Shown here piece after piece: positions 27,880 through 50,091 of a DNA stretch of 64,000 bases (position 1 is its first letter; every line of letters begins with the position of its first letter). Made by a program: the position numbers and the translations under genes. Where the stretch lies: NCBI RefSeq assembly GCF_913774235.1, contig NZ_CAJYDW010000019.1:62001-126000 (forward strand). The letters run 5' to 3'. This DNA is from an uncultured Pseudomonas sp. Lineage in GTDB: Bacteria > Pseudomonadota > Gammaproteobacteria > Pseudomonadales > Pseudomonadaceae. Under the pieces are notes generated by a model, which searched no databases, had not been told where the DNA came from, and saw only the letters and a list, made by a program, of their open reading frames with translations.

Positions 27880-29325
<1,446 letters not shown>

Positions 29326-29345
29326 CGTCCGACGGCTGTACAGCA

Positions 29346-29376
29346 GCCGACCGGTGCCGAGCCGGTCGGCTTTTTT
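29346..29376 (+). terminator. Rho-independent terminator of gltBD
   Basis: GCCGACCGG at 29346-29354 pairs with CCGGTCGGC at 29362-29370 around a 7-base loop, followed by six T. A decayed copy of this hairpin belongs to the gltD ghost (to 29571). Confidence 0.88.
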
Positions 29377-29393
29377 GTGGCTGAAAGATTATC

Positions 29394-29481
29394 GCGGCCA
29401 TGCCGGTGCGCCGTAGCGACCGCTCCTACGGGAAGTGATGCCTCTGTAGGAGCGATCGCTAAGGCGCAATGGCATGGCCGC
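29394..29481. repeat. REP pair, long-arm variant, between gltD and its ghost copy
   Basis: Two 38-nt inverted arms, 29394-29431 and 29444-29481, differ at only five paired positions by hand count; the loop is 12 nt. The arms carry the same ends as the other REP elements of the window (GCGGCCATG and CGCTCCTAC) but with about 14 extra bases in the middle, so they are a second subtype. The last six bases of the right arm, GGCCGC, are also the first six of the gltD ghost. Confidence 0.8.
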
Positions 29482-29571
29482 AACGCCGCCGCGGGAATCC
29501 TCGACCACCTAGGCGGCTAAGTCGCCATGGGTGGACAAGAGTTGAGCGGTGCCGGGCCGATCGGCTTTTTC
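29476..29571 (+). pseudogene. Decayed copy of the gltD 3' end with its terminator
   Basis: Gap-free alignment with 29281-29376, the last 15 codons of gltD including the stop plus its terminator: 75 of 96 bases identical by hand count, 40 of 45 within the coding part. It reads GRNAAAGILDHLGG-stop against [14 protein letters not shown]-stop in gltD. There is no gltD likeness upstream of 29476, where the REP arm begins. Four of the five coding differences change or could change codons, so this is either an old duplicate or the end of a foreign gltD. It is not translated as a gene. Confidence 0.82.
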
Positions 29572-29711
29572 TTGGGCGCTATTCGGGGGCGGGGCTGCGT
29601 TCTGGTGCAGCGAGAGGCGGGGGAGGGTGTTGGGGAGGCCGTGCCAGAGCGCTCGCCGCGCCCTGGCACAGGGTCTGCAAAGATCCCGGTTCTCTCTTCC
29701 GAGGTACTGCC
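29572..29711. other. Intergenic stretch before cynS, G-rich
   Basis: Together with the REP pair and gltD ghost this completes the 386-bp gap between gltD and cynS. It has G-runs at 29585-29589, 29591-29594, 29619-29623, 29625-29627 and 29632-29635 on the plus strand, able in principle to form a G-quadruplex in the leader of cynS. No clear sigma70 promoter was found and no CynR-type operator could be recognised. Confidence 0.4.
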
Positions 29712-30152
29712 ATGAACAAGCCTGAAATGACCGCTGCCATTCTCGCTGCCAAGCAGCGCCTGGGCCTGAGCTGGGCCGCGATCGCCGCCAGCCTGGAAAT
29801 GTCGCCGGTCTGGACTACTTCAGCCTGCCTGGGCATGAACAGCATGGCGCCCGAGGTAGCGGAGCGCCTGTGCCAGGTCCTGGAGTTGCCGGCCGAGGTA
29901 TCCCTGGCCCTGCAAGCCTTTCCGCATAAGCATTGGGACAAGGCCGTGCCGACCGATCCGCTGATCTATCGCTTCTACGAGATGATCAACGTCTACGGCG
30001 ATACCATCAAAACCCTGATCCACGAAGAATTTGGCGACGGCATCATGAGCGCCATCGACTTCAGCATGGACATCTCGCGGGTGGCCGATCCCAAGGGCGA
30101 CCGGGTGCAGATCGTCCTCAACGGCAAGTTCCTGCCCTACAAGAGCTGGTGA
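29712..30152 (+). CDS. cynS: Cyanate hydratase (cyanase)
   Basis: A 146-residue cyanase that converts cyanate and bicarbonate to CO2 and carbamate, which yields ammonia. The N-terminal helical HTH-like domain (to about 75) precedes the catalytic domain; the catalytic Arg, Glu and Ser are Arg87, Glu90 (YRFYEM) and Ser113 (GIMSAIDF). It is some 10 residues shorter at the N-terminus than the E. coli enzyme, but the fold appears whole. It stands alone, without cynT carbonic anhydrase, cynR or a cyanate transporter, just after the gltD ghost, so it was likely gained here. The same reading frame stays open upstream to 29469, but that part runs through the ghost and is not coding. Confidence 0.93.
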   Translation: MNKPEMTAAILAAKQRLGLSWAAIAASLEMSPVWTTSACLGMNSMAPEVAERLCQVLELPAEVSLALQAFPHKHWDKAVPTDPLIYRFYEMINVYGDTIKTLIHEEFGDGIMSAIDFSMDISRVADPKGDRVQIVLNGKFLPYKSW

Positions 30153-47932: not shown

Positions 47933-48093
47933 CGGATGGCCGTTTCCGCAACGTCTGGAAACGGTCCAAACCCTTGCAGAATCAGGCTTTTCGCGGCCAT
48001 TTTCAGCTGGGGTTAAGGGAACCCGGGTTACTCTGGCGCTGTCCAAAAAAACAGTGCTAGACTGCCCAGTGCTTAGTGAATCGGAGGATTCGC
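47933..48093. other. ftsX-rpoH intergenic region
   Basis: This 161-bp gap should hold the rpoH promoters. I see an inverted repeat GTTTCC/GGAAAC near 47942-47962 just after ftsX, and a -10-like TAGACT near 48057-48062. No sigma-E/AlgU or sigma54 promoter could be placed with confidence. The rpoH ribosome binding site is CGGAGG at 48081-48086. Confidence 0.35.
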
Positions 48094-48948
48094 ATGACCA
48101 CTTCTTTGCAACCTGTTCCTACATTGGTTCCCGGCGCCAGCCTGGAAGCCTATGTGCATTCGGTGAACAGCATCCCGCTGCTCACTCCGGAGCGGGAGCG
48201 TGAACTGGCCGAGCGCCTCTTCTACAAGGAAGACGTCGAGGCCGCCCGGCAGTTGGTGCTCGCGCACCTGCGTTTCGTGGTGCATATCGCCAAGAGTTAT
48301 TCCGGCTATGGCTTGGCCCAGGCCGACCTGATCCAAGAAGGCAACGTCGGCCTGATGAAGGCCGTGAAGCGCTTCAACCCCGAGATGGGCGTACGCCTGG
48401 TGTCCTTTGCCGTGCATTGGATCAAGGCCGAGATCCATGAATTCATCCTGCGCAACTGGCGCATCGTTAAGGTGGCCACCACCAAGGCCCAGCGCAAGCT
48501 GTTCTTCAACCTGCGCAGCCAGAAGAAGCGGCTGGCCTGGCTTAACAACGACGAGGTCCATCGCGTGGCGGAAACCCTGGGCGTCGAGCCGCGGGAAGTC
48601 CGTGAGATGGAGAGCCGCCTGACCGGTCAGGACATGGCCTTCGACCCGGCCAGCGATGCCGACGACGATGCCGCCTATCAGTCGCCCGCGCAGTATCTGG
48701 AAGACAGCCGCTACGATCCGGCGCGCCAACTGGAGGAAGCCGACTGGAGCGATAGCTCCACGGCCAATCTGCACGAGGCTCTGGAGCGCCTGGATGACCG
48801 CAGCCGCGACATCCTCTACCAGCGTTGGTTGGCCGAGGAAAAGGCGACGCTGCACGAGCTGGCGGCCAAATACAACGTCTCGGCGGAGCGCATCCGTCAG
48901 TTGGAAAAGAACGCGATGAACAAGCTCAAGGGCAACATCGCTGCCTGA
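48094..48948 (+). CDS. rpoH: RNA polymerase sigma-32 (heat-shock) factor
   Basis: A 284-residue sigma factor of the RpoH type. Region 2 has [17 protein letters not shown]; the RpoH box QRKLFFNLR is intact at about residue 132, separating it from RpoS/RpoD. Region 4 ends with an HTH ([23 protein letters not shown]). It would drive hslVU of this window and other chaperone genes. ATG at 48094 after CGGAGG; 18 upstream bases in frame are dropped. Confidence 0.97.
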
Positions 48949-48967
48949 TCCGGGCCCTGCCCGAAGG

Positions 48968-48994
48968 ACCGCACCCTGGAGTGCGGTTTTTTTT
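48968..48994 (+). terminator. Rho-independent terminator of rpoH
   Basis: ACCGCAC (48968-48974) pairs with GTGCGGT (48981-48987), 6-base loop, followed by a run of eight T ending at 48994. A strong terminator 20 bases after the rpoH stop. Confidence 0.85.
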
Positions 48995-49043: not shown

Positions 49044-49107
49044 ATCGCGGCCATGGGCCGCTCCTACGGAATATCCGGCCGCTGTAGGAGCGGCCCATGG
49101 CCGCGAT
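49044..49107. repeat. REP pair between rpoH and the mtgA ghost
   Basis: Perfect 24-nt inverted arms, 49044-49067 and 49084-49107, with a 16-nt loop. The arms are the same core as at 2639-2706, and even the loop (GGAATATCCGGCCGCT) is close to that copy's. Two near-identical pairs 46 kb apart show recent spread or conversion. Confidence 0.88.
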
Positions 49108-49119
49108 TGAGTCGGTAGG

Positions 49120-49145
49120 GTGGAAAACCGCGCAGTGTTTTCCAC
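49120..49145. repeat. Hairpin repeat h1 (GTGGAAAAC stem)
   Basis: GTGGAAAAC (49120-49128) pairs with GTTTTCCAC (49137-49145) around CGCGCAGT. It resembles hairpins h2 and h3 at 49183-49207 and 49358-49393; the loop GC-core is in the opposite orientation. Preceded by GGTAGG as in h3. Confidence 0.6.
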
Positions 49146-49182
49146 GCGTGAGCATTGCATGGTGGGACAACCTGCGCCTTCA

Positions 49183-49207
49183 GTGGAAAAGGCTGCGCCG
49201 TTTCCAC
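49183..49207 (-). repeat. Hairpin repeat h2, terminator of the mtgA ghost
   Basis: GTGGAAA (49183-49189) pairs with TTTCCAC (49201-49207). It directly follows the stop codon of the mtgA ghost on the minus strand, just as h3 follows the intact mtgA stop, so it was copied with the gene end. Confidence 0.65.
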
Positions 49208-49208
49208 G

Positions 49209-49289
49209 CTACTGCCCGGTCATCCGCTGCAGATAGTTGCTGCTGCCCAACTGGCGAACCCAGGCGGCACGTTCGGCGACATAGGCGCT
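49209..49289 (-). pseudogene. Decayed copy of the mtgA 3' end
   Basis: On the minus strand this reads SAYVAERAAWVRQ-LGSSNYLQRMTGQ-stop. It matches the last 31 codons (with stop) of mtgA at 49390-49482 with a 12-base (four-codon) deletion; 71 of 81 aligned bases agree by hand count. Likeness stops at 49289, where a degraded REP arm (49292-49309) begins. Several changes are synonymous, so it may come from a once-functional homologue. No start or upstream domain exists. Confidence 0.83.
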
Positions 49290-49291
49290 CT

Positions 49292-49348
49292 CCATGCGGC
49301 CGCTGCTAGAGGTGCCGGTAATCCGTAGGAGCGGCCCATGGCCGCGAT
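49292..49348. repeat. REP pair with one degraded arm, between mtgA and its ghost
   Basis: The right arm, 49325-49348, is a perfect 24-nt REP core. The left arm, 49292-49309 (CCATGCGGCCGCTGCTAG), is the inverse core with a few changes. It separates the intact mtgA end from the ghost. Confidence 0.7.
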
Positions 49349-49357
49349 CGAACGCGG

Positions 49358-49393
49358 GTAGGGTGGAAAATGCTGCGCCGTTTTTCACCCTAC
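49358..49393 (-). repeat. Hairpin repeat h3, over the mtgA stop codon
   Basis: GTAGGGTGGAAAA (49358-49370) pairs with TTTTTCACCCTAC (49381-49393), 13 pairs with one G-T. The mtgA TAG (49390-49392) lies inside the right arm. On the minus strand the arm carries only a four-T run inside it, so it may act as a weak terminator or an mRNA-end hairpin. Confidence 0.6.
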
Positions 49394-50091
49394 TGTCCGG
49401 TCATCCGCCGCAAATACTCGCTGCCGCCCAGCTGGCGTTCCTGCTGGCGAATCCAGGCGGCGCGTTCGGCGACGTAGGCGCTCGGGCGGTTCGGGCTCCA
49501 TTCGCGGGGATTGGGCAACACGGCGGCCAGCAGGCTGGCCTGGCGGTCGGACAGGTAAGGGGCGCCTATGCCGAAGTGATGACGGGCCGCGGCTTCGGCG
49601 CCGAACACCCCGTCGTCCCATTCCACGCTGTTGAGATAGACCTCGAGAATGCGCTGCTTGGACCAGAAGGTTTCCAGCAGCACGGTGAACCAGGCCTCGA
49701 AGGCCTTGCGCACATAGCTGCGCCCGCTCCAGAGAAAGAGATTCTTGGCGGTCTGCTGGCTGATGGTGCTGGCGCCGCGCAGGGAGCCGCCGGCTTCGTT
49801 GTGGCTGAAGGCCTGGCGGATCGCCGCCAGGTCGAAGCCCCAGTGCTCGGCGAAGTGCTGGTCTTCGCCGGCGATGACCGCCATCTTGAGATCGTCCGGC
49901 AGCTCCTTCCAGGGGCGCCAGTCGCGCTGCAGGTCGATGGGCTTGCCATCGATCCAGGATTCGACCTTGCGTTCGACCATCAGCATGCTGCCCGGCGGTG
50001 GTACCCAGCGCAGGACCAGCACCACGGCGGCGCTGAGGGCGGCGAACCAGAGGGCGACACGCAGGAGACGACGGAGGAGGGTACGCAGCAT
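49390..50091 (-). CDS. mtgA: Monofunctional biosynthetic peptidoglycan transglycosylase
   Basis: A 233-residue GT51 glycosyltransferase without a transpeptidase domain. One N-terminal membrane span (about 9-28), catalytic Glu in AGEDQHFAEHWGFD, and the motifs GGSLRGASTISQQTAKNLFLW and RILEVYLNSVEW are all present. It polymerises lipid II, helping PBP1A. The last 30 codons are duplicated in decayed form at 49209-49289. The stop codon is inside hairpin h3. Confidence 0.96.
   Translation of the reverse strand: MLRTLLRRLLRVALWFAALSAAVVLVLRWVPPPGSMLMVERKVESWIDGKPIDLQRDWRPWKELPDDLKMAVIAGEDQHFAEHWGFDLAAIRQAFSHNEAGGSLRGASTISQQTAKNLFLWSGRSYVRKAFEAWFTVLLETFWSKQRILEVYLNSVEWDDGVFGAEAAARHHFGIGAPYLSDRQASLLAAVLPNPREWSPNRPSAYVAERAAWIRQQERQLGGSEYLRRMTGQ

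Follow-up and report, generated by a model that had tools for sequence, protein, structure and literature searches.

A decayed mtgA tail among REP palindromes in a Pseudomonas genome: a candidate scar of joined spacer haplotypes

The rpoH-mtgA spacer holds a second, decayed mtgA end

In the window (the 64 kb stretch of DNA from an uncultured Pseudomonas sp. that was analysed here), the convergent genes rpoH and mtgA are separated by a spacer that reads, from rpoH to mtgA, as the rpoH terminator, an intact REPIN, the hairpin pair h1/h2, a ghost of the mtgA end, a REPIN with a truncated arm, hairpin h3 and mtgA itself. The features are as follows (G000 is the window's own genome, G006 is P. oryzihabitans NBRC 102199, which is also locus L076, and the other G numbers are relatives):

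48076-48948, plus strand: rpoH, the convergent neighbour (sigma-70 regions 1.2, 2 and 4)
49044-49107, no strand: REPIN_A1, on the outer flank, made of GTAGGAGCGGCC-type REPs as an intact inverted pair, with 24-nt arms that are 100% complementary
49115-49212, no strand: REPIN_B1, in which a 37-nt spacer separates h1 from h2, with h2 running into the ghost's stop
49209-49289, minus strand: mtgA ghost, from the last 30 codons, with 26 left, a 12-nt in-frame deletion and the stop kept
49292-49348, no strand: REPIN_A2, separating the two copies, with a left arm that is cut short at CCATG; its loop is orthologous to the mtgA-side REPINs of G007 and G010 (inverted)
49358-49393, no strand: REPIN_B2, a single hairpin (h3) in G000 and a full pair in G006
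49390-50091, minus strand: mtgA, intact (Transgly, PF00912)

Self-BLAST of the window (plus strand) returned three local direct repeats, counting those of 35 nt or more whose copies lie no further than 2.5 kb apart. One pairs 49183-49290 with 49363-49483 over 121 columns (78.5% identity, E 1.9e-22), another consists of REP arms (49084-49140 vs 49325-49385), and the third lies at the end of gltD (29281-29375 vs 29476-29570, 81%, E 5e-17). The first bears out the original prediction that h3 and the mtgA tail had been copied downstream and had decayed: 49183-49290 is a degraded copy of h3 and of the 30 terminal mtgA codons, and h2 is 95% identical to the start of h3 over 21 nt. Read on the minus strand, the ghost ends in a stop at 49209-49211, and its 26 codons align to mtgA's final 30 across an in-frame gap of 12 nt, in agreement with the predicted 12-base deletion and retained stop. 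A REP pair had also been placed between the copies, with the ghost at its edge. The ghost does adjoin REPIN_A2, with two amendments: REPIN_A2 has an intact right arm (49325-49348) and a truncated left arm starting near 49292, folding at -29.5 compared with -57.1 for the intact REPIN at 49044-49107 (RNA parameters), and h1, h2 and h3 are themselves GTAG-type REPs (family REP_B). Since the intact REPIN and h1 precede the ghost, both mtgA ends are preceded by a REP_A and a REP_B of their own.

REP_A is GTAG-tagged too, and each family forms a short hairpin with a terminal GTAG, paired in opposite orientation, as GTAG-tagged REPs and REPINs are. Both occur in high copy number in the genome (212 hits for REP_A and 60 for the REP_B, or h, core at up to 2 mismatches, and 0 for reversed-pattern controls). 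The RAYT search with Y1_Tnp (PF01797), a family that also includes other IS200-type transposases, matched 9/13 genomes of the genus, with two matches in G000 and none in the REPIN-bearing G010.

Compared with the consensus of ten functional mtgA ends (three distant congeners left out; small numbers), the ghost carries 4 non-synonymous and 4 synonymous substitutions and the G006 ghost 6 and 4, whereas the functional genes carry 0-2 and 1-4 (n=10); approximately 71% would be expected to be non-synonymous without constraint. These substitutions show relaxed constraint. Over its 81 bases, the ghost differs from its own mtgA at 10 and from the mtgA of other species at 8-14, and it nests with no single species' mtgA. 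It is probably non-functional, with no sign of a role in the cell, and is most likely a scar.

The ghost is specific to mtgA and was found in two genomes

We compared the spacer across a genus sample of 13 genomes, and searched a family sample of 398 genomes with the ghost DNA as query. Some match was found in 34/398 family genomes, and a second copy beside mtgA in 2/398 (G000 and G006); in G257, two stretches of 32-33 nt matched, each on its own contig. This search is blind to distant mtgA ends, with short or no matches beyond the close group, and hence says little about distant genomes. Among the best 80 of 267 relatives, a comparison of named Pseudomonas loci with their own mtgA tails gave one strong case, that of G006 (E 1.6e-15), while five other loci had matches of 13-24 nt (E 0.001-0.005). 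With a second copy beside mtgA in 2/398 family genomes and in one of the best 80 of 267 named loci, we rejected a shared dispersed repeat, and the prediction that the copy is specific to mtgA stands. Ghost-free strains exist, as the proposed comparison of rpoH-mtgA regions was to establish: of the 13 genus genomes only G000 and G006 have the ghost, and it is absent from 8/10 close genomes.

The G006 ghost has the same 12-nt deletion and differs from that of G000 at 2/81 bases. The mtgA protein nearest to that of G000 is found in G011 (98%), yet G011 lacks the ghost and has a different intergenic layout. This distribution could reflect either transfer as a block or loss elsewhere. From the rpoH stop to REPIN_A2, G000 and G006 agree at 310/338 aligned columns, which is not above gene identity and so does not demonstrate recent block transfer between them. 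A scan of rpoH site patterns for the edge of a transferred block found few sites, one of them unique to G006 in 48800-48990, which is too weak a signal to place such an edge.

The two REPIN units differ in their relationships

REPIN_A1, REPIN_B1 and the ghost form unit 1, and REPIN_A2, REPIN_B2 and the end of mtgA form unit 2. In G000, the REPIN_A2 loop matches that of G007 (z 6.3) and, inverted, that of G010 (z 7.2); the G006 loop matches G007 poorly (p 0.064). The REPIN_B2 spacer, for which the G006 sequence was used, matches G010 (z 8.0), G007 (6.6) and G011 (5.9), and the 9-nt flank of REPIN_B2 agrees at 6/9 positions with G007 and likewise with G008. No match was seen between the spacers of REPIN_B1 and REPIN_B2 (p 0.39), and that of REPIN_B1 weakly matches another REP_B of G010 (p 0.022); these spacer p values rest on shuffles, and a genome-wide null set gave 0 further pairs by script and one elsewhere. 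The A1 and A2 loops show borderline similarity (p 0.02-0.07 in the best orientation). The outer flank of unit 1 (49 nt) matches G006, itself a carrier of the ghost (z 23.1), and none of the eight other genomes (z -1.1 to 2.7), among them G007 (z -1.1), G010 (2.5) and G011 (1.0), whose REPIN_A flanks differ from it. By these matches, the REPINs of unit 2 are orthologous to those of ghost-free relatives, and those of unit 1 are not.

At mtgA, a right parent for a join of haplotypes was found and a left parent was not, as no single-copy parent of unit 1 turned up in the genome collection. The 9-nt flank ahead of the unit 1 REP_B agrees with G001 at 8/9 positions (0/20,000 random 9-mers did so; 10 flanks of other genomes were compared). 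We considered G001 as the full left parent and dropped it, since its outer flank does not match significantly (z 1.8). The motif CCAT is common to mtgA (CTCCATTCGCGG) and the REP arm (GCGGCCATGG).

REPIN loops are also found inverted between unchanged flanks: the A1 loop (window 49068-49083) between G000 and G006 (reverse z 8-10, forward 0.1-0.3), and the A2 loop (window 49308-49324) between G000 and G010 (reverse z 7.2, forward 2.1). The G011 spacer (L002/L075) is without REPIN_A2 at CACGAT/AAACCACAGG, where G010 (L010/L080) has it; by eye, the G011 site looks like a precise empty or excised REPIN_A2 site.

At gltD, two intergenic haplotypes lie side by side

The same layout had been predicted at gltD, which served as a comparison locus:

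27901-29325, plus strand: gltD, intact
29390-29483, no strand: REP-like palindrome with a gltD end on either side, not close enough to the REP_A pattern to be matched at 4 mismatches
29476-29570, plus strand: ghost of the gltD 3' end and terminator, continuing as the cyanase-bearing haplotype
29712-30152, plus strand: cynS, cyanase (PF02560, PF21291)

The cyanase gene occurs in 6/13 genus genomes, in all six beside gltD. In G003, G006, G008 and G010, gltD and its terminator are followed directly by cynS; G001, G007, G011 and G012 have gltD and terminator without cynS (G012 also without the REPIN); and G000 (29476-30152) and G009 (L163) have gltD, terminator, REPIN, a gltD tail, a second terminator and then cynS. 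In the three distant congeners, gltD adjoins hemE and cynS is absent. The 90 nt past the first terminator of G000 match the cyanase-lacking G001 (z 21.6), G007 (9.2) and, weakly, G011 (4.0). They match neither G012 (z -0.1), which lacks both cyanase and REPIN, nor any of the four cyanase-bearing genomes (z -1.9 to 1.6). The 90 nt past the second terminator match 4/4 cyanase-bearing (z 14.0 to 20.7) and 0/4 cyanase-lacking genomes (z -1.0 to 1.1), and G009 repeats the pattern of both flanks. Each copy's flank thus matches a different single-copy haplotype, the pattern of a haplotype join. As the two gltD ends continue like cyanase-lacking and cyanase-bearing relatives, respectively, we read this locus as a join of two spacer versions, which apparently brought cynS with it and left both parents visible. 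It is also possible that the joined form is ancestral and that deletions gave rise to the single forms.

The cynS of G000 is nearest to that of G008/G010 (96.6%), while its gltD and hemE are 92.9-93.9% identical to theirs; the G009 cynS is likewise nearest to G008/G010, and the cynS genes of G000 and G009 are 92.7% identical to each other. In its coding part, the ghost is identical to its own gltD at 45/45 positions in G009 and at 40/45 in G000, and it starts at the same GGCCGC in both. G009 has approximately 44 extra nt between the REP end and the ghost, so the neat GGCCGC edge of the REP in G000 may be the result of a later deletion. A longer ghost in G009 was considered and dropped, as the 41 nt ahead of it do not match upstream gltD (p 0.66).

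Similar repeats arise elsewhere by tandem duplication

A scan of 1,107,807 bases for gene-tail repeats returned gltD, mtgA, the G006 mtgA, a tandem on contig C19 and the locus L217. The scanned stretches partly overlap, the ORF filter was crude, and rows with the same first 26 bases were removed, possibly hiding the G009 gltD. At L217:1625-2047 (contig C11 of G000), a unit of 209-212 bp with one REP_A occurs twice at 95-98% identity and carries the 13 terminal codons of an ORF of 284 aa. Nine relatives conserve this ORF at 82-85%, and among the matches listed its second end copy is in G000 alone of the 13 genomes. L217, with its near-identical units, is a plain, recent tandem duplication of a REP unit and a gene end. 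In a set of 60 REP-centred, partly overlapping loci of G000, nine have tandem-like repeats that span REPs: L217 and L208, L210, L213, L216, L218, L231, L244 and L252, the last eight having units of approximately 0.1-0.3 kb. The C19 tandem (G000:C19:319279-319531, L176:13279-13531) repeats a gene tail over 130 bp with a palindromic CTCTCCC/GGGAGAG repeat and no REP; by eye, it has expanded to arrays of five hairpins in G010 and four in G009.

With a haplotype join at gltD and a tandem duplication at L217, the same layout has at least two origins. The predicted likeness of mtgA and gltD hence holds for their layout; a single duplication process behind both is not supported, the gltD copies being two haplotypes and L217 a clean tandem.

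Origin of the mtgA ghost

We prefer, with confidence about midway between doubt and belief, to see the mtgA ghost as a junction scar between two spacer haplotypes. Two versions of the rpoH-mtgA spacer, each ending in REP_A, REP_B and an mtgA 3' end, would have been joined. The left version (rpoH, REPIN_A1, REPIN_B1 and mtgA end), presumably from another strain, would have been cut within its mtgA and joined to the right version inside the outer arm of REPIN_A2, so that the recipient's complete mtgA was retained. The shared CCAT may have guided this join, and the donor DNA may have recombined normally through rpoH on the opposite side. The copy and its decay, the truncated REPIN arm, the differing REPINs of the two units and the orthology of unit 2 to ghost-free relatives are the observed basis of this reading. 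The main rival, which we hold to be a real though somewhat doubtful possibility, is an old tandem duplication in which slippage or unequal exchange inside a single genome copied the REPIN_A-REPIN_B-mtgA-end unit; decay would have followed, and the outer unit would have undergone replacement or a REP-to-REP deletion. REP-spanning duplications are common in G000, where L217 is a clean model, REPIN tandems with their flanks are already published (PMC3116915; PMC3733652, as far as the parts consulted go), the unit order is identical in both mtgA copies, and the borderline similarity of the A1 and A2 loops is what a tandem origin would predict. However, one tandem duplication copies one set of REPINs, and the two sets here suggest two parents, or duplication with later exchange. 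Because the REP_B spacers and flanks differ and unit 2 matches ghost-free relatives, the tandem route needs at least one extra recombination. The outer flank of unit 1 is also unlike the REPIN_A flank of G007, G010 and G011, and tandem duplication leaves the gltD case unexplained.

Insertion of a REPIN with a long target-site duplication of approximately 100 bp would account for the direct repeats of about that length that flank a REP pair at each of the two loci, mtgA and gltD. It is nevertheless highly improbable: G007 and G010 have orthologues of REPIN_A2 yet a single mtgA end, the gltD copies are of different haplotypes, and the REPIN-empty G011 site shows, by eye, no long duplication relative to G010. 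The REP pair may have driven the mtgA event, though REPIN_A2 is present in these two genomes (by loop orthology) next to one mtgA end. Preservation of the ghost for some role, whether through a small protein encoded by the minus-strand open frame 49209-49388 or through an RNA hairpin, would fit the kept stop and frame and the in-frame deletion, but is hardly credible given the substitutions of both ghosts, set against those of the ten functional genes, and the ghost's absence from most close genomes.

If the junction reading is true, a decayed gene tail reveals the source of each version of a spacer, and the scar shows how a gene such as cyanase entered the core locus at gltD. That gene-tail ghosts at REP palindromes constitute a class of scars that can be read, marking haplotype joins with a preference for REP arms and serving to date and locate gains such as that of cyanase, is a speculative extension that we think unlikely to hold. 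Tandem duplication produces the same layout, and the mechanism cannot be read from layout alone. Either way, the ghost is a small record of genome rearrangement.

Comparison with known systems

In enterics, REPs mediate large tandem chromosomal duplications with a REP at the join point; a REP also lies at the join here, on a scale of approximately 0.1-0.3 kb. Homology-facilitated illegitimate recombination, reportedly described in Acinetobacter, anchors donor DNA by homology at one end and joins the other end where homology is slight or lacking, whereas a donor at mtgA would be conjectural. Short homology is visible at the joins, namely CCAT at mtgA and GGCCGC at gltD, where the G000 edge may stem from a later deletion. 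In the consulted parts of a study of donor integration in E. coli, 56/60 clones gave a PCR product of a partial lacZ duplication, and the 14 sequenced duplications (109-950 bp) were attributed to one crossover with a donor circle that had been shortened; the true clones of homology-facilitated illegitimate recombination (n=4) had deletions (PMC3240628).

P. fluorescens SBW25 has, according to the parts consulted, 16 tandem clusters in which a REPIN and its flank recur in one direction (Bertels and Rainey 2011, PMC3116915), and GTAG families include REP clusters reiterated together with flanking DNA (PMC3733652, likewise in part). L217 fits such clusters fully; the mtgA units, which are not near-identical, do not: their gene ends agree at 78.5%, and their REP_B spacers are unrelated. 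Among titles and the beginnings of abstracts, we found no paper on gene-tail copies at REPs, a weak basis for calling them unpublished. Switched intergenic regions and horizontal regulatory transfer are known, according to the consulted parts of the Piggy paper (PMC5890482), and likewise involve alternative haplotypes at one locus that are incongruent with gene similarity. The difference here is that the two versions adjoin each other, and a gene tail is left as the scar of their joining. To these known processes, the mtgA ghost adds a case and the gltD join a clear two-parent example.
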